From the NCBI GenBank assembly GCA_029260395.1, contig JAJDDJ010000009.1, positions 248,001-312,000 on the forward strand: a stretch of DNA of 64,000 bases. Reading direction: 5' to 3'. Each line of letters starts with the position of its first letter. Position 1 is the stretch's first letter. This DNA is from Phycisphaerales bacterium (lineage in GTDB: Bacteria; Planctomycetota; Phycisphaerae; Phycisphaerales; UBA1924). This document shows positions 41,587 to 52,315 of this stretch, piece by piece. A program made the translations under genes and the position numbers. The notes beneath the pieces were generated by a model. The model ran no database searches and was not told the DNA's origin. It saw only the letters and a program-made list of their open reading frames with translations.

Positions 41587-43629
41587 ATGACCCGACTCAA
41601 GACCTGGACCACCACGCTCGCGATAGGAATGGCACTCGGCGGCGCCACGATCACTACGACTGCTCAGGACGAACTGATCGACCGCGAGGTGCTGTTCGGC
41701 AACCCCGAGCGTGCGCAGGTCCGCATGAGCCCCGACGGCACCTACATCAGCTTCATCGCGCCCGTCGAGGGTGTGCTGAATGTCTGGGTCGGGCCGGCGA
41801 ATGACTGGAAGAAGGCCGAGCCGATCACGAGCGACACCGTTCGCGGCATCCGCAGCCACTTCTGGGCGTGGGATTCGGCGCACGTTATCTACACGCAGGA
41901 CAAGGGCGGCGACGAGAACTTCCACGCCTACAGCGTCAACGTCAAGACGGGCGACGAGCTCGACCTGACACCGGGCGACAACCTGCGCGCGCAGGTGCAG
42001 CAGGTCAGCCCCGACTTCCCGGGCCACATCCTCATTGGAGTGAACGACCGCGACCCAAGACTGCACGACATCTACCGTGTCGAACTGGCCACGGGCGAGC
42101 GCGAGCTGGTGATGACTAACACCGGTTACCTCGGCTTTGTCACCGATGACAGCTACGAGGTTCGGTTCGCCCAGCGGTTCCGCCGCGACGGCGGGATCGA
42201 CATCTACCGCGTGGCCGACGGGGCCGTCGAGCCCGAGGCGTGGGACGTGATCCCCGAGCGGGACGCGGCCACGACCAACATCGGCGGGTTCGACCGCACG
42301 GGCGAGCACATCTACATGCTCGATAGCCGCCCCGCGGACACCGCTGGGTTGTACCGCGTGAACGTCGAGACCAAGGCCAGCGAGCTGCTCTACCGCAACG
42401 ACCGGGCGGATGTCTCGGGCGCAATGGTCCACCCGACGACCTACGCCGTCGAGGCGGTGAGTTCAGAATTCCAGCGAACCGAATGGGAGTTCTTTGACGA
42501 TGCGGTCAAGGCGGACTTTGCGGTACTGGGCAAGCTCGATGACGCGGAGGTCTCGATCGCTTCCCGTACAGCCGACGACCGCACGTGGATCGTGTCGATG
42601 CTCAAAGACGACGGCCCGGTGAAGTACTACAAGTACGACCGCGATTCCAAGAACGCCGAGTTCCTGTTCACGCACCGGCCCGATCTTGAGGGCCTGCCGC
42701 TGGCACCGATGCATTCGCTGGTCGTCAAGGCGCGCGACGGTCTCGAGATGGTCTGCTACCTCACGCTGCCCCGGTGGACCGATGAAGACGGCGACATGAA
42801 GCCGACCGAGCCGCTGCCGATGCTGCTCAACGTTCACGGCGGGCCTTGGGCGCGCGACAGCTGGGGCTACAACCCCGCCCATCAGTGGCTCGCCAACCGG
42901 GGCTACGCGGTGATGAGCGTCAACTTCCGCGGCTCGACGGGCTTTGGCAAGGAATTCATCAACGCTTCCAACTACGAGTGGGCGGGCAAGATGCACGACG
43001 ACCTGATCGACGCCGTCGATTGGGCGATCGCTCAGGGCATCGCCGACCCCGACCGCGTGGGCATTATGGGCGGCAGCTACGGCGGGTACGCCACGCTGGT
43101 GGGCCTCACGTTCACGCCGGACCGGTTTGCTGCGGGCGTCGACATCGTCGGGCCTTCGAGCCTGATCACGCTGCTCGAGTCAATCCCGCCCTACTGGGAG
43201 CCCGCCCAGCAGCTCTTCAAGAGCCGGGTGGGGGATAAGGACACCGCCGAGGGCCGTCGGGCGCTGCGAGCGGTCAGCCCGCTGACGCACGTCGATGAGA
43301 TCACAAGCCCGCTCTTGATCGGCCAGGGCGCGAATGACCCTCGCGTCAAGCAGCAAGAGGCCGACCAGATCGTCGAGGCGATGGAGAAGCGCGACATCCC
43401 GGTCGCGTACGTGCTGTTCCCCGACGAGGGCCACGGCTTTGCACGCCCCGAGAACCGTCTCGCGTTCAACGCGGTGGCCGAGGCGTTCCTCGCTGAGCAC
43501 CTCGGCGGGCGGTACCAGCCGATCGATGACGACTTCGAGGGTTCAAGCCTGACCGTGCCCGCGGGCGCGGACCAGGTGCCGGGGGTGGCCGAGGCGCTGC
43601 CCGCCAAGGCCGACGGCGGCGGTAAGTAA
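41587..43629 (+). CDS. Secreted S9-family prolyl oligopeptidase/dipeptidyl peptidase
   Basis: 680 residues. ATG 41587 has AGAGG about 6 bases upstream and opens a signal peptide (TTLAIGMALGGATITTTAQ). An N-terminal beta-propeller (about 30-390) contains WD-like repeats. The alpha/beta-hydrolase domain carries Ser497 in GGSYGGY, Asp584 in GANDPRV and His616 in EGHGF. S9 enzymes cut small peptides, often after Pro or Ala; exported ones recycle peptides. The reading frame stays open 2.1 kb further upstream, but that stretch is antisense or out of frame to other genes. Ends at a strong terminator. Confidence 0.95.
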   Translation: MTRLKTWTTTLAIGMALGGATITTTAQDELIDREVLFGNPERAQVRMSPDGTYISFIAPVEGVLNVWVGPANDWKKAEPITSDTVRGIRSHFWAWDSAHVIYTQDKGGDENFHAYSVNVKTGDELDLTPGDNLRAQVQQVSPDFPGHILIGVNDRDPRLHDIYRVELATGERELVMTNTGYLGFVTDDSYEVRFAQRFRRDGGIDIYRVADGAVEPEAWDVIPERDAATTNIGGFDRTGEHIYMLDSRPADTAGLYRVNVETKASELLYRNDRADVSGAMVHPTTYAVEAVSSEFQRTEWEFFDDAVKADFAVLGKLDDAEVSIASRTADDRTWIVSMLKDDGPVKYYKYDRDSKNAEFLFTHRPDLEGLPLAPMHSLVVKARDGLEMVCYLTLPRWTDEDGDMKPTEPLPMLLNVHGGPWARDSWGYNPAHQWLANRGYAVMSVNFRGSTGFGKEFINASNYEWAGKMHDDLIDAVDWAIAQGIADPDRVGIMGGSYGGYATLVGLTFTPDRFAAGVDIVGPSSLITLLESIPPYWEPAQQLFKSRVGDKDTAEGRRALRAVSPLTHVDEITSPLLIGQGANDPRVKQQEADQIVEAMEKRDIPVAYVLFPDEGHGFARPENRLAFNAVAEAFLAEHLGGRYQPIDDDFEGSSLTVPAGADQVPGVAEALPAKADGGGK

Positions 43630-43653: not shown

Positions 43654-44427
43654 TCAAGGCCCGGGCGATTCGCTCGGGCCTTTTGCATCGATGGGCGGCG
43701 TGTCGCTCGGCAATGGTTCCCAAGTGCACCCGCACTCGGGGCAGGTGATGGTGCCGTCGCCGAGGGCGGAGAGGTCGTACTTGCAGGTTGGGCAAAGTTG
43801 CTGTTCTAGAAGAGAAAGGTTGCGGCCGCGCGGGAACGCATCCTGGATTCGTAGCTTGACGCCCCACAATGCCGCGATGAGCAGGAGCGGACCGATGATG
43901 TGCCGGATAACACCAAACCAGAGAACCCGGGTGTGTGCACAGGAGTGTCCCTGCGAAGGCGGCGGTCCCGACCAACGCATGACCGATCGAAGTTCTTCGG
44001 CCGCTGCGTCAAGCACAGCAGGATTGGTCGCCAGTCGGGCCCGTCCTATCTGTTGTCCTGACGGCAGTTCAGGTACTTGCCAGTAAGACAGCTCGCACCG
44101 GATTCCTCGGGTTACCTGCGACCAAGGACCATAGCCGTACACCCACCCGTAGGCATGCTCTCCTCCTCGGCGCGGAACACCAAGCGCCCAGTGACCATCG
44201 GGCAGCGCGCCGCCGCGAATCCGATCGCCTGCGACGATTTCAATGCCGCTTTCTGTCACTCGGCCAACGAAGTCGTCGCAGTGCATTGCCGAGGCCCGAC
44301 GGACCGGCTTGCCAAAGAGGTCGTCTGCCATCGGAGTATGTGCCAGGTCGTACACACACAGCGTGACTAGCAAGGCGCACGCCGCACGGGTCGAGAGCAG
44401 TTGTCTGACACAAACAAGCCATCGCAT
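43654..44427 (-). CDS. Membrane protein with C-terminal zinc ribbon, third gene of a coupled trio
   Basis: 257 residues. One N-terminal hydrophobic segment, an extracytoplasmic domain of about 150 residues, a second segment (VIRHIIGPLLLIAALWGVKL) and a cytoplasmic C-terminus with CPTC and CPECG pairs preceded by YDL. The ATG at 44427 shares its A with the TGA of the gene before it. The last codons lie within the terminator hairpin of the S9 gene on the other strand. It belongs to a family of seven such proteins in this window. Function unknown. Confidence 0.8.
   Translation of the reverse strand: MRWLVCVRQLLSTRAACALLVTLCVYDLAHTPMADDLFGKPVRRASAMHCDDFVGRVTESGIEIVAGDRIRGGALPDGHWALGVPRRGGEHAYGWVYGYGPWSQVTRGIRCELSYWQVPELPSGQQIGRARLATNPAVLDAAAEELRSVMRWSGPPPSQGHSCAHTRVLWFGVIRHIIGPLLLIAALWGVKLRIQDAFPRGRNLSLLEQQLCPTCKYDLSALGDGTITCPECGCTWEPLPSDTPPIDAKGPSESPGP
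43656..43684 (+). terminator. Rho-independent terminator of the S9 peptidase gene
   Basis: AAGGCCCGGGCG pairs with CGCTCGGGCCTT (one G-T wobble) across a three-base ATT loop, then TTGC, 27 bases past the stop. The hairpin lies within the last codons of the convergent zinc-ribbon gene, whose own end may use it too. Confidence 0.9.
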
Positions 44428-45134
44428 CACTCGTCTGATTCGATCCCCGCTTGGGGCGGTTCCCATGTGCAGCCGCACTCGGGGCAGTTGTTCGGCTCGC
44501 CGCCGCTGAGGTCGTACGAACAGATCGGGCAGCGGTTCTTGCTGAGTCGGCGGCACCTGCGAGCGCGTACGAAGTTCACACAACCGGTCATGCCCCAGCG
44601 AGCCGAGCCATAGAGACCAAGGGCCGCAGCCAGGTACCAGGCGATGTTTGAGTAGAGCGCAGCCGGGTTGCTCTTCGTGATGACATGATCGCCGACCCGC
44701 AGGTCGGCGCGGGTTGCTTCATCCATATAACGCTGCCAGCGGCTCACGACTCGCGAGCGCAGATCGCCGTCCAACGCCATCGGGGTAACACCCGGGAGCG
44801 GGTCGATTTCAAGGCGGACCGTCGTGGTATCGCTGGTCTTGAAAGGCCAGCCGGTGTGCTGGTTCTCGACTCCGATCGAAACGATGTGCGTGCTCGCGCC
44901 GCTGGCGACATCGTCCATGCTCTCTCTGAGCGGATCGATGATGCGACGGTCTCCGGTATCATCCACGACCACCCACAACGAGGACGCCCCTGTTTGCAGG
45001 CTCCACCACTGAACGGGGGACTGCATGAGCGTTTGGTAGATCAGCACCGCAATGGCCACGAACAGCACAACCGGGGCAAGTGGGTGCCACCAAGCAACTT
45101 TCGCCGGAGCAAGATCAACGGCGCGCCTGTTCAC
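44427..45134 (-). CDS. Membrane protein with C-terminal zinc ribbon, second gene of the trio
   Basis: 235 residues from a GTG at 45134 that overlaps the previous gene's TGA (GTGA). Upstream in-frame codons belong to that gene in another frame. Two transmembrane segments (WWHPLAPVVLFVAIAVLIY and WYLAAALGLYGSARWGM) bracket an extracytoplasmic domain that includes a PLPGVTPMALDGDL stretch. The cytoplasmic end carries CPIC...CPECG with YDLSG. Same architecture as its two neighbours, so probably partners or paralogues acting together. Function unknown. Confidence 0.78.
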   Translation of the reverse strand: MNRRAVDLAPAKVAWWHPLAPVVLFVAIAVLIYQTLMQSPVQWWSLQTGASSLWVVVDDTGDRRIIDPLRESMDDVASGASTHIVSIGVENQHTGWPFKTSDTTTVRLEIDPLPGVTPMALDGDLRSRVVSRWQRYMDEATRADLRVGDHVITKSNPAALYSNIAWYLAAALGLYGSARWGMTGCVNFVRARRCRRLSKNRCPICSYDLSGGEPNNCPECGCTWEPPQAGIESDE

Positions 45135-45865
45135 ACCACCACTCGCTGGTCGAGTTCGTCCGGGTTCCACACGCGGCCGCACTCGTTGCATTCGGTGTGC
45201 GGCGGCTCGCTGCCGGTCAGGTCGTACGCGCAGTGGGGGCACCGCTCTCGCCTCAGCCTGCGCCGGCTCCGCAGGAGCTTCTGCAAGCTGATGAACCGCA
45301 GCCAGGGCCATAGCGCCGCGAGCCACACGAGCGTGAGCACCGCGCACGCGACCCACCAGACCCAGACGCGGTGGCGAACAACGCGGTAGGTGAGGTCGGG
45401 CGCGCGCAGGGCTTGTGCGTACGCCTCGGGTATCGAAGGGTCGTGGGCTATGAGCTGTGCGCCGAGTGCTTGAGCGGCATGGTGTTCTTCGTCGGTTAGC
45501 CCGCCGTTGGCGCCGCTGGAGAGCGGGTCATTGGAATGGAGCGTGAGCGTGAACTCGAAGCGTCCCCACTGGTCGTACATGAACCCGCGCGAGGCGACGA
45601 CCGTCACATACCGGTGGGTGGACTCGCCTGAGACCCACGGGCGCACCTCACCGGCCTCGGTGATCTCGATGGTGGCGTCTGGAATCGCGGCGGTGAACCC
45701 CGGCGGGATGGAGGCGGGCCTTGCCAACAGGTACAGCGGCAAGAACACAACGAACGCCGCAGCCCCGGCGATGAGCATCCGCCGGCTTACGGGCGGCGCG
45801 GTGAGCGGCACGGTGGGGCGGCTGGCGGGCTCGGGGACGTGAGGTGGTTGGTCTGTAAGGGGCAT
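45131..45865 (-). CDS. Membrane protein with C-terminal zinc ribbon, first gene of the trio
   Basis: 244 residues from ATG 45865; longer in-frame starts run back through the structured-RNA region and are unlikely. A Pro-rich N-terminus (DQPPHVPEPASRPTVPLTAPP) is followed by a transmembrane segment, an extracytoplasmic domain, a Trp-rich second segment (VWVWWVACAVLTLVWLAALW) and a basic stretch. The zinc ribbon CPHC...CNECG with YDLTG ends the protein. It leads the three-gene operon with overlapping starts and stops. Promoter presumably in 45866-45960, shared with the plus-strand RNA. Confidence 0.78.
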   Translation of the reverse strand: MPLTDQPPHVPEPASRPTVPLTAPPVSRRMLIAGAAAFVVFLPLYLLARPASIPPGFTAAIPDATIEITEAGEVRPWVSGESTHRYVTVVASRGFMYDQWGRFEFTLTLHSNDPLSSGANGGLTDEEHHAAQALGAQLIAHDPSIPEAYAQALRAPDLTYRVVRHRVWVWWVACAVLTLVWLAALWPWLRFISLQKLLRSRRRLRRERCPHCAYDLTGSEPPHTECNECGRVWNPDELDQRVVV

Positions 45866-45934
45866 GTCAAGAAAAACTTGCAAAGGGCAGAACAAGAGCG
45901 GCGTGCTTTCCGTATACATGTACAGAGTAACCGA

Positions 45935-46096
45935 GGTTGGACAAGACCAACCAAGGCGAAACGAACTGGCCCGGAGCCGCTGAGACACGCGACGACGAAC
46001 AGGGCATTGAATCGAAAGCAAACAGGTCGAAAGACCTTTACGATCTCTCTGGTCCGGGCCCCGCGATGTACCCCGTCGCGGGGCCTTTTCTTTTTT
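45935..46096 (+). ncRNA. Candidate structured RNA or attenuator leader upstream of the LptF-like gene
   Basis: No credible protein is encoded in 45866-46182, yet it contains stacked RNA-like structure on the plus strand. Hairpin GGTTGG-(6)-CCAACC is at 45935-45952. A long-range stem pairs GGCCCGGA (45968-45975) with TCCGGGCC (46053-46060). Hairpin AGGTC-GAAA-GACCT at 46024-46037 has a GNRA tetraloop. A terminator follows at 46057-46096. The long-range stem uses four bases of the terminator's 5' arm, so the two cannot form fully together, as in attenuators and riboswitches. The LptF-like start is 87 bases on. It does not match any riboswitch consensus I could recall (cobalamin, TPP, c-di-GMP, fluoride, SAH, guanidine). 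Confidence 0.55.
46057..46096 (+). terminator. Strong Rho-independent terminator with no protein gene upstream
   Basis: Perfect ten-base stem GGCCCCGCGA/TCGCGGGGCC, 9-base loop, then TTTTCTTTTTT. The minus strand has no T-run, so it acts on plus-strand transcription. The nearest upstream plus-strand gene ends 2.4 kb away with its own terminator. Confidence 0.9.
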
Positions 46097-46182
46097 GCGC
46101 ACCTTGATGCGCACGGCTTCGCGAGAACGGCGTTTTGGCCCGATCCGGTGCTGACCGCCTCCGGTCTCTATCATCGCGGGCG

Positions 46183-47862
46183 ATGGATGCTCCGAGAACA
46201 CTCTGGTGGCACGTAACGGGTGAGTTGTGGCGGATGCTGCTGCTGACGGCGGCGATTCTCGTCACAGTCATCGCGTTCGCGGCGGGCATCAAGCCGCTGG
46301 CCGAGGGCAAGCTTGGCCCCGCGGAGATGCTCAAGTTCATGCTGCTCGCGGTGCCCCCGATGCTGGCGTACGCCGTGCCGTTTGCGGCGGGATTTGCAGC
46401 GACGCTCGCCTACCACCGCATGAGCCAGGACAACGAGGCCATCGCGGCCCACGCGGGCGGGGTGAGCCACCGCTCGCTGCTCGTGCCGGCGCTGGCTTCG
46501 GGTTTGGTGCTGGCCGGGGTGATGGGCGTGCTCAACGAGCAGGTAATCCCCCGGTTCCTGCGGTCGATGGAACAGCTCATCACGCAGGACCTGACCAAGA
46601 TGATGGTCGGGTCGATTCGGCGGGGCGAGCCCCTGAACATCGGCGACCTGCACCTGCACGCCGACTCGGTCGAGGTCCGCGACCCGGCGTCCGACCCGCG
46701 CGTCGCCTCGACGGGGGCGACCGACTGGCTGGTGCTCAACGGGGTGGTGTTCATCGAGACCACCCGCAGCGGCGAGATCCGCAACGAAGTCGTGGTGCAA
46801 CAAGCCCCGGTGCTGTTCATGCAGGGGCCTCGTGAGGACGGCTCGGAGGGCACCACCGCCTGGGTGTACCCGCGTCAGGGCGTGGGCATCCGGGGAGAAG
46901 AGGGCCTGGTCGTCTTTGATGAGCTGCGGCCCATCCCGCTCGCGGTGCCCAATGCATTCGAGGACGACCCGAAGTTCCTGACGTTCGGCGAGCTCGCGGG
47001 CCTGCGCGATGAGCCCGACCAGATGGGGTTCATACGCACCCGCAGCCGGGACCTGGCGCACCACCTTGCTGAGCGCGCCACGACCGAGCTGATCTCGGGC
47101 GAGCTATCGCGCGCCCAGCGGGCGCGGGTCGATCGCGGCGGCGAGCCCCTGGTGATCCGTGCATCGAGCATCCACTGGGACCCGCGCGAGCTGATGTGGC
47201 GGCTCACCCCGCCGCCTGGACAGGCGACTGTGGTGATTGACCGCAGGCGTGGCCCCCAGCAGACACTCACCGAGCTGCGCGCCGAACGGGCCTGGCTCTA
47301 CACCGACCTGCGGACAGACGATCAGGGCATCGACCTCACGCTCAGCCTTCGCTTGGAAGACGTAACGACGCGGGATGCGAACGACATCGAGTCAGTTGGC
47401 CAGCGCGAGGAAATCCTGCTTGAGAACATCCGGCCCAACCGCGACCCGCTGCCGCCGCTGCTAAACCTGAGTGCCGATGAACTGCTGGCGCGCGCTGCGC
47501 CCAAAGTGGACGTCGAGAACCCGGACCTGTTTTTGATCGGACCGGTGGTCGAGCTGCGCAAGCGGCTGAGCCGGCTCGAACGCGAGATTCTCAGCAAGCA
47601 GCACGAGCGCTTGGCGATGGCGGTCGCGGCGTTCGTGATGGTGCTCACGGGCTCGGTGGTGGCGCTGAGGCTGCGCGAGGCCTCGACGCTGACGGTGTAC
47701 TTGTGGAGCTTCTTCCCGGCGCTGGGCTCGATCATCGTCATCAGCGCCGGTCAACAGGCCACCCATGACCGGGGCGCAATCGGCTTGTTCCTGCTCTGGT
47801 CGGGCGTGGCGGTGCCCGCGGGCTACGCGCTGTTCGCGTACATGAGGCTGCGGAAGCACTGA
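46183..47862 (+). CDS. LptF/LptG (YjgP/YjgQ)-family permease, LptF-like
   Basis: 559 residues from ATG 46183. The family forms the inner-membrane part of the LptB2FG transporter that extracts LPS. Three N-terminal transmembrane segments (about 13-120) are followed by a long beta-jellyroll periplasmic domain (about 140-450) and three C-terminal segments (AVAAFVMVLTGSVVALRL, VYLWSFFPALGSIIVIS, GLFLLWSGVAVPAGYALF). Periplasmic domain is larger than in E. coli LptF (366 residues total). The GTG of the GT39 gene abuts its stop. It lies just beyond the attenuator-like element. The second LptF/G-family gene is the last of this operon, and lptB is at 56160. Confidence 0.88.
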   Translation: MDAPRTLWWHVTGELWRMLLLTAAILVTVIAFAAGIKPLAEGKLGPAEMLKFMLLAVPPMLAYAVPFAAGFAATLAYHRMSQDNEAIAAHAGGVSHRSLLVPALASGLVLAGVMGVLNEQVIPRFLRSMEQLITQDLTKMMVGSIRRGEPLNIGDLHLHADSVEVRDPASDPRVASTGATDWLVLNGVVFIETTRSGEIRNEVVVQQAPVLFMQGPREDGSEGTTAWVYPRQGVGIRGEEGLVVFDELRPIPLAVPNAFEDDPKFLTFGELAGLRDEPDQMGFIRTRSRDLAHHLAERATTELISGELSRAQRARVDRGGEPLVIRASSIHWDPRELMWRLTPPPGQATVVIDRRRGPQQTLTELRAERAWLYTDLRTDDQGIDLTLSLRLEDVTTRDANDIESVGQREEILLENIRPNRDPLPPLLNLSADELLARAAPKVDVENPDLFLIGPVVELRKRLSRLEREILSKQHERLAMAVAAFVMVLTGSVVALRLREASTLTVYLWSFFPALGSIIVISAGQQATHDRGAIGLFLLWSGVAVPAGYALFAYMRLRKH

Positions 47863-49572
47863 GTGGCTGCGCACGAAGCACAATCCATCAGCTCCGGACC
47901 CCCCGAAAACACCGGCGCGTTCATGCGTTGGGCGAGGCCTTGGCCTGCGACGATGGTGCTGGTGCTCGCGGTGCTTGTGGCAAGGCTTGCGTACACGTGG
48001 CTAGCGGGGGTGTACACACTCGTCGAGGATGAGGCGCACTACTGGGAGTGGTCGCGGTGGCTCGAGTGGTCGTACTACTCGAAGGGCCCGGGTATCGCGT
48101 GGTTGATTCGGCTGGCGACCGAGGCGATGGGCACGAGCGAGGCGGCGATCCGTACGCCCGCGGTGGTCGCGTCTGCGGTGGTCGCGCTGTGCGCTGCGGG
48201 CATGGCGCGGAGCATTTATAGCGACGGAAGGGCCGCATTTGCGGCGGCGGCGATGGTGTGCCTGATCCCGATCTATCAGGCGGTCGCGCTGCTGATGACG
48301 ATCGACGGGCCGTTTCTGGCGTGCTGGTCGGTGGCGTGTTGGTCGGGGCTTGTGGCACTTCGTCGAGGCGGGCGGCTGAGCTGGCTGGTACTGGGCGCTG
48401 CGCTCGCGCTGGGGTTTTTATTCAAGTACACGATCGTGCTGCTCGTGCCGGGGCTGGTGGTGTTCGCTCTGGTGCATCGCAAGACGCTGGTGCTCGCGCC
48501 CGGCTGGGCGAAGTGGCTGGTTGCCTGCGGCTTCATCGCGTTGCTCGGACTCTTGCCCGTGGCGGTGTGGAACGCCCAGCACGACTGGGCCACGGTGCGC
48601 CACCTGCTGGGCCACGCGGGCCTGCCCGGGGGCGATCAGCAGACAGCGCCGGGCGGGCGCACGCTCAACCCCATGAGCACGCTCGAGTTCATCGGCGTGC
48701 AGTTCGGCGTAGTCGGGCCGATGCTAGTCGTCATGCTCGCAGCGGGTCTCGGCAGGGCCTCGCGCTGGATCGACATCGACACTTGGCGGGGCGATCGGGC
48801 GCTGTGCGTGTGGTGCGCAGCGCCAATCTTGCTCGGGTACGGCGTGCTGTCGTTGTTCACGGATATCGAGGGCAACTGGCCCATCGCGGCGTATGTCTCG
48901 CTCATTCCGCTCGCAGCGGGGCAAGTGGTACGCGTCAAGGACCACGTTCGCGAGCGCACCACCGAGTGGCTGGCGATGCCGGAGCAAGAGCGGCCTAGGT
49001 GGGGTCTGCTGCGCAAGCGGCCCGAGGCGGTCAGCCAGATCGCTTGGGACTGGGCGGTCGTGTTCGGGCTTGTCGCGGGCGCAGGCGTGCTTCGGCTGGA
49101 CTTGCTCACGAGGTTGCCATGGCCCGGCGAGGGCGCGCCCCTTGACCGTGTTGTCGCGCGGCTGACTGAGGCGGACACGCGGGCCGCCAGCACCGCCGAA
49201 CTCATGGAACAATTGTGGACCGGGACCGGGCTTGAACCCTTCGTGCTGGCCCAGCAGTACGGCCGATCGAGCCAGCTCGCGTTCTACCTTCCGGGCAGAC
49301 CGACCGTCTACGCGACCAGCAGCCTGATGAATGGCAGGCGCACGCAGTACGACGAGTGGGACCACACGGATCTGCGCACGCCGCAGGTGAACAGCGAGCT
49401 GCTCGGCAGGCCCTCGGTGATGATCGGCGCGACCGCGGAACAGTGGCTGGAGGCCTTCGAGCGGGTCGAGCTGATCGGGACGCTGGCTGGCGAGCGCAAG
49501 AAGGGCCGGGATGCCTACCTTGGGTATGGCTATCGAGGGTTCGAGCAAGCCAGACCGGGGAACCAGGATTGA
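47863..49572 (+). CDS. GT39-type (ArnT/PMT-like) membrane glycosyltransferase
   Basis: 569 residues with about 10-12 transmembrane segments. The first periplasmic loop has YTLVEDEAHYWEWSRWLEW, matching the catalytic DEA.Y motif of GT39 enzymes such as ArnT, which transfer a sugar from a polyprenyl phosphate donor to lipid A or proteins outside the inner membrane. YYSKGPGIAWLIRL is also conserved. The C-terminal 130 residues are soluble. GTG start abutting the LptF-like stop; ATG at 47923 is an alternative. Position between Lpt-family genes suggests lipid A or O-antigen modification, which is inference. Confidence 0.85.
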   Translation: MAAHEAQSISSGPPENTGAFMRWARPWPATMVLVLAVLVARLAYTWLAGVYTLVEDEAHYWEWSRWLEWSYYSKGPGIAWLIRLATEAMGTSEAAIRTPAVVASAVVALCAAGMARSIYSDGRAAFAAAAMVCLIPIYQAVALLMTIDGPFLACWSVACWSGLVALRRGGRLSWLVLGAALALGFLFKYTIVLLVPGLVVFALVHRKTLVLAPGWAKWLVACGFIALLGLLPVAVWNAQHDWATVRHLLGHAGLPGGDQQTAPGGRTLNPMSTLEFIGVQFGVVGPMLVVMLAAGLGRASRWIDIDTWRGDRALCVWCAAPILLGYGVLSLFTDIEGNWPIAAYVSLIPLAAGQVVRVKDHVRERTTEWLAMPEQERPRWGLLRKRPEAVSQIAWDWAVVFGLVAGAGVLRLDLLTRLPWPGEGAPLDRVVARLTEADTRAASTAELMEQLWTGTGLEPFVLAQQYGRSSQLAFYLPGRPTVYATSSLMNGRRTQYDEWDHTDLRTPQVNSELLGRPSVMIGATAEQWLEAFERVELIGTLAGERKKGRDAYLGYGYRGFEQARPGNQD

Positions 49573-50339
49573 CCAGGCCGCTGCCTCATCACAAGAGCCC
49601 GTTCGCGGGCCACGCGCGCCGAAGGTGGACGCGGTGGGTGGTGGTGGGCATTTTGCCCGGTGCGGTGTTGATCGCGCTGGCACACGTATTGGACCGGCCG
49701 GTGTACGAGGCGCTCTCGGCGACCAAGCCGCAACTCACGCGGATGGAAGAGGGAGCGTTCTACCGAATGGTGTGGCTCGTGGGCTCGCTATGGACGTGGG
49801 TGCTGATCGCCCTTGGGTTCTACCTGCACGATCGCACCCCGCCGCCGCTGGGCCCGAGGCCAGCGCTGGGTCAGCGGCGTGATCCCGGCGCACGGGCGGT
49901 GGCGGTCGCGGGGTCTGCGATTGTCGGCGGGCTGATCGCCGAGGTGCTCAAGGTAGTCATCGGGCGCGAGCGGCCTACAAGGCTCGTGGACGGCGTGTTC
50001 CAAGAACAGATATACACCTTCAAGCCCTTGTTTGGCGCGCTTCGCGATGGCTCCAATCTGGGCATGCCTTCGAGCCACGCGGCTGCGGCATTTGCAGGAG
50101 CCATGGCGATAGCGATGGTCGCGCCGACGCTGCGCGGGCTGGCGCTGGCGATGGCCGCGTTGTGCGCGCTGAGCCGAATCATCGCGTCGGCGCACACACT
50201 GAGCGATGTGGTGGTGGGGGCGATGGTCGGGATGCTGGCCGCGGTGTTCGTCACGCAGTGGGCGACCCGGCACGCTGGCACGGAGGTCGTGCCCGCGTGG
50301 GCGTTCGGCGCCGCCAGCGGAAGGGGTGGCCGAGGATGA
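49569..50339 (+). CDS. PAP2-family membrane phosphatase
   Basis: 256 residues from a TTG at 49569 that overlaps the previous stop (TTGA). No ATG or GTG gives a better start. Catalytic motifs are complete: KVVIGRERP (128-136), PSSH (167-170) and SR-X5-H-X3-D (Ser202, His209, Asp213). About six transmembrane segments. PAP2 enzymes dephosphorylate phosphatidate, undecaprenyl pyrophosphate or lipid A. In an operon with a GT39 enzyme, releasing undecaprenyl phosphate or trimming lipid A phosphate fits best. ATGA overlap with the LptG-like gene. Confidence 0.88.
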   Translation: MTRPLPHHKSPFAGHARRRWTRWVVVGILPGAVLIALAHVLDRPVYEALSATKPQLTRMEEGAFYRMVWLVGSLWTWVLIALGFYLHDRTPPPLGPRPALGQRRDPGARAVAVAGSAIVGGLIAEVLKVVIGRERPTRLVDGVFQEQIYTFKPLFGALRDGSNLGMPSSHAAAAFAGAMAIAMVAPTLRGLALAMAALCALSRIIASAHTLSDVVVGAMVGMLAAVFVTQWATRHAGTEVVPAWAFGAASGRGGRG

Positions 50340-51478
50340 CGCTGCTCGACCGCTACATCGCGCGGCAGTACCTGCTCAACGCCCTGCTCTTGCTGGTGAT
50401 CCTCGGCGGGTTCGTGGTGACGATCGACGTGTCGCTCAACATCAACCGCTTTGGTCGTCAAGCGGCAGAGCTGGCGAGCCAGTCCGGCGCCGGCGAGGAC
50501 CCGTCGGACGTGCGTGTGGCGATGCTCACGGTGTTTTTGATCGCGGACCTGTGGTGGCCTCGGCTGCTGCAGTTGTTCAACTACATGAACGGGCTGGTGC
50601 TGGTGGGAGCGATGGGCTTCACCTGCGCGCAGTTGGTTCGCCACCGCGAGCTGGTGGCGGTCCTCGCGGGTGGACAGAGCCTTGTGAGGCTGTCGCGGCC
50701 GATCTTCATCGTTGCGGTGGCGCTGACGGGCGTGCAGATCGTCAACCAGGAGGTGGTGATGCCACGGATCGCGCCGCTGCTAACGCGCGACCCGGGCGAG
50801 GCGGGCCAGCACCGGCTCGATGCATCTTCGCTGCCGCCGACCGCCGACAGCCTCGGCAGGGTTTGGTACGCGGCCTCGTTCGATCCCGGCGCAGAGCAGC
50901 TCAATGGGTTGTCGGTGTGGGTGCGCACACCAAGCGGCCTGGCGAGCGAACGCATCGACGCAGAATCGGCTGTGTGGCACGACGGCGGGTGGGACCTCCG
51001 CAGCGGCGAGGCGGTCTCGCGCACCGATCAAGCGGCGCCGACCCGGCCGGTCAGGCGAATCGAGACCAACCTCGACCCGATCGAACTCAAGACGCGGCGG
51101 TTCTCGGGCTACAGCCAGAACCTGAGCTGGCGGCAGATCGGGCAAATGATCCGCGTCTACGACGACCTCGGCGCGAGCGATACACAAGCCAGAGTGGCAC
51201 GCGAGCGGCTCGAACGCATCCGGTGGGGCCGCCTCTCGGCGATGCTGTGCAACCTGCTCGCGCTGGCGATCACGCTGCCGTTTTTCTTGACGCGGATGCC
51301 AGGCGATCTGATGGCGCGTTCACTCAAGGCCGCCCCAGTGGCGCTGCTCGCGCTGGTTGGGGGCGTGATCGGTTCAACCGCGACCATCTCGGGCATCCCG
51401 CCCGCAGTCGGAGCGTTCCTGCCAGCACTGTCGTTGCTCCCGGTGGCCTTGGCGATGATCGCCTCGGTCAAGACCTAA
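50336..51478 (+). CDS. LptF/LptG (YjgP/YjgQ)-family permease, LptG-like
   Basis: 380 residues. MTLLDRYIARQYLLNALLLLVILGG is the canonical N-terminus of the family. Three N-terminal and three C-terminal transmembrane segments surround a periplasmic jellyroll domain (about 120-260). Starts at an ATGA overlap with the PAP2 gene, with a GA-rich ribosome-binding site. It is the likely partner of the LptF-like protein at 46183, with LptB from 56160 as the ATPase. A lipid bound for the outer membrane is the expected substrate. Confidence 0.92.
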   Translation: MTLLDRYIARQYLLNALLLLVILGGFVVTIDVSLNINRFGRQAAELASQSGAGEDPSDVRVAMLTVFLIADLWWPRLLQLFNYMNGLVLVGAMGFTCAQLVRHRELVAVLAGGQSLVRLSRPIFIVAVALTGVQIVNQEVVMPRIAPLLTRDPGEAGQHRLDASSLPPTADSLGRVWYAASFDPGAEQLNGLSVWVRTPSGLASERIDAESAVWHDGGWDLRSGEAVSRTDQAAPTRPVRRIETNLDPIELKTRRFSGYSQNLSWRQIGQMIRVYDDLGASDTQARVARERLERIRWGRLSAMLCNLLALAITLPFFLTRMPGDLMARSLKAAPVALLALVGGVIGSTATISGIPPAVGAFLPALSLLPVALAMIASVKT

Positions 51479-51583
51479 CACGGGCGCTGATAGAACAAGC
51501 TGCGAACAGGCTCGTTAGGCGGGTTGGTTTTCTTGAAGAACACGGGTGCCCCCAAAGCCGGTTTGCGGTATGCTGTGGCCGAC

Positions 51584-52315
51584 ATGCGGACCAGAGGACG
51601 GGCCTTTACATTGCTGGAGTTAATGGTGAGCATCGCGATTATCGCGGTGCTGATCTCGTTGCTGCTGCCCATGCTGGTGCAGGCGCGCCGGCACGCGGCA
51701 CGCACTCTCTGCATGAACAACGTCCGCCAGATCGGCATCGGCTGGCAGTCGTTCCTTGGTGATGAGGGAACGTTTCCCGGCGCGGAGGTCCAGCCGCAGT
51801 GGCGCTACGCGGGCGTGCGGTTCTTGGGAGGCTCGGTCGAGCGCCCGGTAGCGGATGCTTCGAGGCCGCTCACCGAGTATCTGCATTCAAGCGAGAGCAC
51901 AACAGCGGGCACGGTCGCCGCAAGCCTGTACCGCTGCCCAGAAGATACGGGCCTGGCGACGATCGGCACACCAGACACCCCTTCGATGAGCGCGATGCAT
52001 GGCAAGACGTGCTATCAGGAGTTCGGCAACAGCTACCGCGCCAACGAGTGGCTGCTCGACGCGAGCCTGTCGGGCATTGACAAGCAGCCCAGGCCGCTGC
52101 GGGATGCCGAAGTCTCGGCGCCCCCGTCTCGATTGATCCTGTTCGGCGACCCGGTTTGGTACTACGCCACGCGAGACGTTCCACCTAGCGAACAGCTCGA
52201 TGCTTCGTGGCACAGCGGGACCAACGCGGGCCACATCGTCACGCTCGATGGCTCCGTGCGGCACGTTTCATTCCTAGGCGGCAGTCTCGGCGATTTCACG
52301 ACCGCGCCGCGCTGA
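51584..52315 (+). CDS. Pseudopilin-like protein, second copy in window
   Basis: 243 residues from ATG 51584. Prepilin signal RAFTLLELMVSIAIIAVLIS with Glu at +5. The C-terminal HSGTNAGHIVTLDGSV is a looser version of the H-X9-DG motif. Only 27 percent or so of visible positions resemble the 19269 protein, mostly in the first 50 residues, so it is a distant paralogue. There is no Shine-Dalgarno sequence; TATGCT at 51569-51574 would put the transcript start near the ATG, hinting at a leaderless mRNA. No pilus assembly genes nearby. Confidence 0.86.
   Translation: MRTRGRAFTLLELMVSIAIIAVLISLLLPMLVQARRHAARTLCMNNVRQIGIGWQSFLGDEGTFPGAEVQPQWRYAGVRFLGGSVERPVADASRPLTEYLHSSESTTAGTVAASLYRCPEDTGLATIGTPDTPSMSAMHGKTCYQEFGNSYRANEWLLDASLSGIDKQPRPLRDAEVSAPPSRLILFGDPVWYYATRDVPPSEQLDASWHSGTNAGHIVTLDGSVRHVSFLGGSLGDFTTAPR

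Follow-up and report, generated by a model that had tools for sequence, protein, structure and literature searches.

The plus strand between a divergent membrane protein gene and lptF may well code, as we hold with moderate confidence, for a lineage-specific, free-standing non-coding small RNA some 170 nt long, ended by the terminator at 46056-46096. A riboswitch acting on lptF is unsupported on present evidence; the locus is probably that of an orphan small RNA instead. Such an RNA would be transcribed on the plus strand, divergently from the zinc-ribbon gene at 45131-45865, from a start site belonging to a putative promoter near 45890-45920, and its 3' end would be made by the intrinsic terminator. 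It may act in trans by base pairing through the unpaired stretches 45953-45967 and about 45986-46022, and target pairing would then probably take place without Hfq. The features of the locus are compiled in Table 1; the window is the whole stretch of DNA analysed, 64 kb in length.

The terminator consists of a 13-pair hairpin (stem 46056-46068/46074-46086, 10 G-C pairs) followed by the tail TTTTCTTTTTT, and the segment 46049-46096 has a fold energy of -27.5 kcal/mol. In the initial annotation, a ten-base terminator had been described together with two hairpins and a long-range stem; all of these elements were found at the positions given there, and the terminator turned out to be stronger than claimed. 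Intrinsic terminators were classed as strong when they had at least 9 pairs, 7 or more of them G-C. Four sites in the window belong to this class. Three sit 26-83 nt behind a stop codon on the same strand, the 46056 site being the sole exception. Since these three peers stand directly behind genes, strong terminators in the window mark transcript ends, and the 46056 terminator thus ends something other than a protein gene. That no protein gene precedes it, as had been stated before, was borne out: the nearest preceding plus-strand gene ends at 43629, and the gap is occupied by three zinc-ribbon genes on the minus strand.

A plus-strand ORF at 45507-45842, considered as a gene ahead of the terminator, has a codon score of 0.32 versus 0.15 for the overlapping minus-strand gene. 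It was taken as an antisense shadow of 45131-45865, because the minus-strand gene has paralogues as well as homologues, the latter in 15 other genomes of the family and mostly over the C-terminal part. Small-protein genes on the plus strand from 45864 (frame of a 125-aa ORF) or on the minus strand (45 aa) were rejected for their non-coding codon usage. The three tandem genes at 43654-45865 on the minus strand encode membrane proteins that are paralogues of one another, carry a zinc ribbon (CPxCxYDL...CPECG) at the C-terminus and belong to no Pfam family.

Table 1. Features of the candidate RNA locus and its neighbours (positions in the window).
Feature	Position	Strand	Basis
Divergent neighbour, membrane protein with C-terminal zinc ribbon	45131-45865	-	Paralogues at 44427-45356 and 43654-44583
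Possible ECF-sigma-like promoter GAAC-N17-CGTATAC, weak, chosen post hoc	45890-45917	+	Sequence pattern
Proposed small RNA (estimated 5' end, +/- about 10 nt; 3' terminus at the T-run)	45924-46096	+	Orphan terminator; fold z -2.84
5' hairpin GGTTGG-ACAAGA-CCAACC	45935-45952 (arms 45935-45940/45947-45952)	+	Pair probability ≥ 0.95
Long-range stem GGCCCGG 45968-45974/CCGGGCC 46054-46060, plus inner pairs	45968-46060	+	Folding, shuffles
GNRA-capped hairpin AGGTC-GAAA-GACCT	46024-46037	+	Pair probability 0.8-0.95 or more
Intrinsic terminator (stem of 13 pairs, T-run)	46056-46096	+	Hairpin scan, folding, ensemble pair probabilities
TATCAT, predicted -10 of lptF, 8 nt before ATG 46183, behind the terminator	46169-46174	+	TANNAT conservation
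lptF, LptF/LptG family permease, downstream neighbour	46183-47862	+	PF03739, E 4.6e-30

Homologues of lptF are present in 60 of 61 genomes, the source genome counted. The upstream regions of 30 lptF loci, including that of the window, were searched for the hexamer TANNAT. Fifteen of them carry it in the 45 nt that precede the match start (shuffle mean 0.6, maximum 4). Of the ten 40-nt bins that make up the 400 nt upstream, the last holds 15 occurrences and the remaining nine together hold 2. Judged by sequence, this placement is the mark of a predicted -10 element followed by a very short leader or none. As the conserved -10 stands behind the terminator, transcription of lptF appears to begin after it, and lptF appears to be a transcription unit separate from the candidate RNA. 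Regulation of lptF in cis by this RNA is probably not to be expected. The initial annotation had proposed a comparison with the regions upstream of homologous lptF genes; there, the leader was absent at the 29 other loci, whose surroundings gave zero matches to the RNA model, and 1 of the 29 has a strong terminator in the 300 nt upstream. The 29 include the two nearest relatives, in which the operon order lptF-GT39-PAP2-lptG is preserved. The RNA is absent from one Phycisphaerae MAG (L067), retrieved by an lptF search of genome contigs.

The region 46183-52315 comprises lptF and genes for a GT39-type mannosyltransferase, a PAP2 phosphatase, LptG and a prepilin-type DUF1559 protein, and the same order is found in two other genera (L067 and L078). 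TANNAT near the start codon, seen in half of the family's lptF genes (L031-L060), points to transcripts with very short leaders or none as a widespread feature of the group. Species poor in Shine-Dalgarno sequences from phyla including Planctomycetes are reported to tend toward signs of leaderless or S1-type initiation (PMC5397173).

Calling the region a structured RNA is a modest claim: its elements are a pair of small but stable hairpins, a single long stem that exceeds chance expectation, and a terminator of very high strength. The whole of 45935-46096 folds with a z-score of -2.84 against shuffles, whereas 45932-46056, without the bases shared with the terminator, has shuffle-like stability (z -0.84), so that the excess stability comes mostly from the terminator and the CCGGGCC complement. 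The value of -2.16 for 45968-46060 is likewise due to this complement, which was reached in equal quality upstream of CCGGGCC in 7 of 500 shuffles. Bases 46057-46060 belong to both the long stem and the terminator arm, and constrained folding gives equal energy (-60.9 kcal/mol) whether the complete terminator or the long stem is imposed. In the ensemble, terminator pairs inward of 46061/46081 have a probability of about 0.98-1.0 and pairs of the shared bases one of 0.77-0.95. The long stem, previously described as anti-terminator-like, does share four bases with the terminator and competes with it at its base; the terminator core remains paired. According to these models, the long stem could weaken the terminator base next to the T-run without replacing the terminator.

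Upstream of and within the RNA, the plus strand was searched for a σ70-like -10 element (TANNNT), and none was found across 45781-46038. The pattern GAAC-N17-CGTATAC, at 45890-45917, resembles an ECF-sigma promoter; GAAC-N16/17-CGTA occurs three times on the plus strand of the 64 kb, so that a chance match in the short intergenic stretch has a probability below 1%, but the pattern was chosen post hoc. Inside the RNA, the plus-strand hexamer TACGAT at 46039-46044 is similar to the -10 of lptF. A transcript from there to the terminator would measure only about 45 nt, and hexamers of this kind are expected by chance at such a rate.

Comparison of the locus with Rfam 15 gave zero family matches, in agreement with the earlier statement that no known family fits. 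No homologue was detected by blastn in 163 genomes of the family or 400 genomes of the order, among which no other genome of the genus appears, and a covariance model built from the single sequence detected none in 40 relatives and the 163 family genomes. The blastn matches obtained in 61 relatives and in the family and order genomes are short and were not accepted as homologues: those inspected for 45961-45999 fall within or next to reading frames that have no relation to the locus, and those to the 3' end of the RNA are terminators of other units, for instance behind a tRNA in L005. The best covariance-model matches reach 25 bits at most, show disrupted pairs and large gaps, appear to be due to chance and lie mostly in coding sequence. 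Plasmid and phage collections contained no match to the RNA, and no study of it was found in the literature on planctomycete small RNAs or leaderless genes. The sensitivity of these searches can be gauged from 6S RNA. The 6S model (RF00013) gives no match at 45935-46096, and this identity was rejected for the locus. A probable divergent 6S RNA of the genome was found at G000:C9:165509-165672 on the minus strand (L079:1010-1173), with 27.2 bits, below the Rfam cut-off of 46.4. Searching with this candidate by blastn recovered counterparts in some of the relatives, in two cases (G040 and G021) at matches to the 6S model, so that an RNA as well conserved as 6S would probably have been detected. 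A fast-changing small RNA would escape such a search, and for intergenic small RNAs conservation is a supportive rather than a defining criterion.

Three other explanations were weighed against a free small RNA. The terminator might halt plus-strand transcripts arising within or antisense to 45131-45865 and thereby shield lptF, in which case 45935-46056 would have no function as RNA. A good promoter is missing directly ahead of the RNA, folding without the terminator-linked bases is chance-like and conservation was not found in the family or order genomes, all of which would fit; yet the intergenic stretch is long, and both hairpins (5' and GNRA), like the CCGGGCC complement, exceed the needs of a bare spacer. 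We regard this explanation as rather unlikely. A new riboswitch or attenuator for the lptF operon, one of two readings in the initial annotation, would comprise a leader from about 45924 in which the stem 45968-46060 weakens the terminator base and opens lptF. The four shared bases, the isoenergetic folds and a complement seldom matched in shuffles speak for it, and the pairs lost would be those adjoining the T-run, but the core pairs of the terminator are kept almost throughout the ensemble, the conserved -10 of lptF stands behind the terminator, and neither this leader nor, at all but one locus, a strong terminator lies ahead of the other lptF genes. This proposal is not supported, and we consider it improbable, less likely still than an insulating terminator.

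A non-stop mRNA in the style of arfA and brfA is the least likely of the three, and we give it very little credence. The frame from TTG 45937 to TGA 46105-46107 (56 codons) is open through the terminator, which would cut it before the stop codon and leave a transcript without one; the terminator of brfA likewise lies inside the reading frame, ahead of the stop codon (PMC6881298). The coding signal of the frame is weak, with 0.11-0.21 bits per codon; in the first codon model, genes have a mean of 0.36 and a 5th percentile of 0.11. The best frame score of the region is reached by 0.8% of shuffles. However, GAGG directly abuts the TTG start, leaving no properly spaced ribosome site, GC3 is 0.62 versus about 0.84 in genes, and the predicted peptide is acidic, whereas ribosome rescue factors are expected to be basic. 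The peptide has zero Pfam matches and no homologue; matches with E 0.007 and 0.015 per genome among the 163 genomes appear chance-like, one of them containing internal stops. If true, the locus would provide an arfA/brfA-like non-stop mRNA in a planctomycete, encoding an unrelated peptide, and the non-stop product would accumulate only upon failure of trans-translation, as known for arfA and brfA.

A free small RNA, which the initial annotation had named as the alternative to a riboswitch, is supported by the anatomy of the locus: a transcript end without a preceding gene and a separate lptF promoter. The orphan strong terminator with its three peers behind genes, the -10 of lptF behind the terminator, hairpins of high pair probability, the missing leader at other lptF loci and the non-coding character of all other plus-strand frames tested argue for it. 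Against it weigh the lack of a homologue in the 163 family and 400 order genomes, the lack of a σ70-like -10 element across the region searched, the shuffle-like fold outside the terminator-linked bases and the one open frame that is partly coding-like. Hfq (PF17209) was not found in the source genome and 20 relatives (n = 21), with control genomes positive, which also weighs against this reading; target pairing, if any, is thus probably Hfq-independent. Pairing of the unpaired stretches with the start regions of 30 genes of the window, including lptF, is at shuffle level. If transcribed, the RNA would be a small RNA candidate beside a conserved envelope-export operon, in a family whose 21 genomes checked yielded no Hfq. 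It would offer a test case for the use of small RNAs by planctomycetes, the general weight of which is kept small by its orphan status.

Several known systems share single traits with the locus. Like crcB and pfl riboswitches (PMC2864571), it holds a structured element overlapping a terminator ahead of a gene; those elements are conserved before the same genes, whereas the RNA ending at the 46056 terminator is missing ahead of other lptF genes, and lptF carries a -10 of its own. With brfA and arfA the frame at TTG 45937 has in common its shortness (56 codons; 71 in brfA) and an intrinsic terminator inside its end (PMC6881298), and it differs in having no plausible ribosome binding site, an acidic peptide and no homologue found. 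6S RNA (RF00013) is of similar length and also has a large loop closed by a long stem, and the 6S candidate of the genome sits elsewhere, at C9:165509-165672. MicA and RybB represent bacterial trans-acting small RNAs with intrinsic terminators. The candidate RNA differs from this type in that no homologue was found and 21 genomes of the group yielded no Hfq; it resembles it in being a short stand-alone unit with a 5' hairpin, unpaired stretches and a terminator with a long U-tract.
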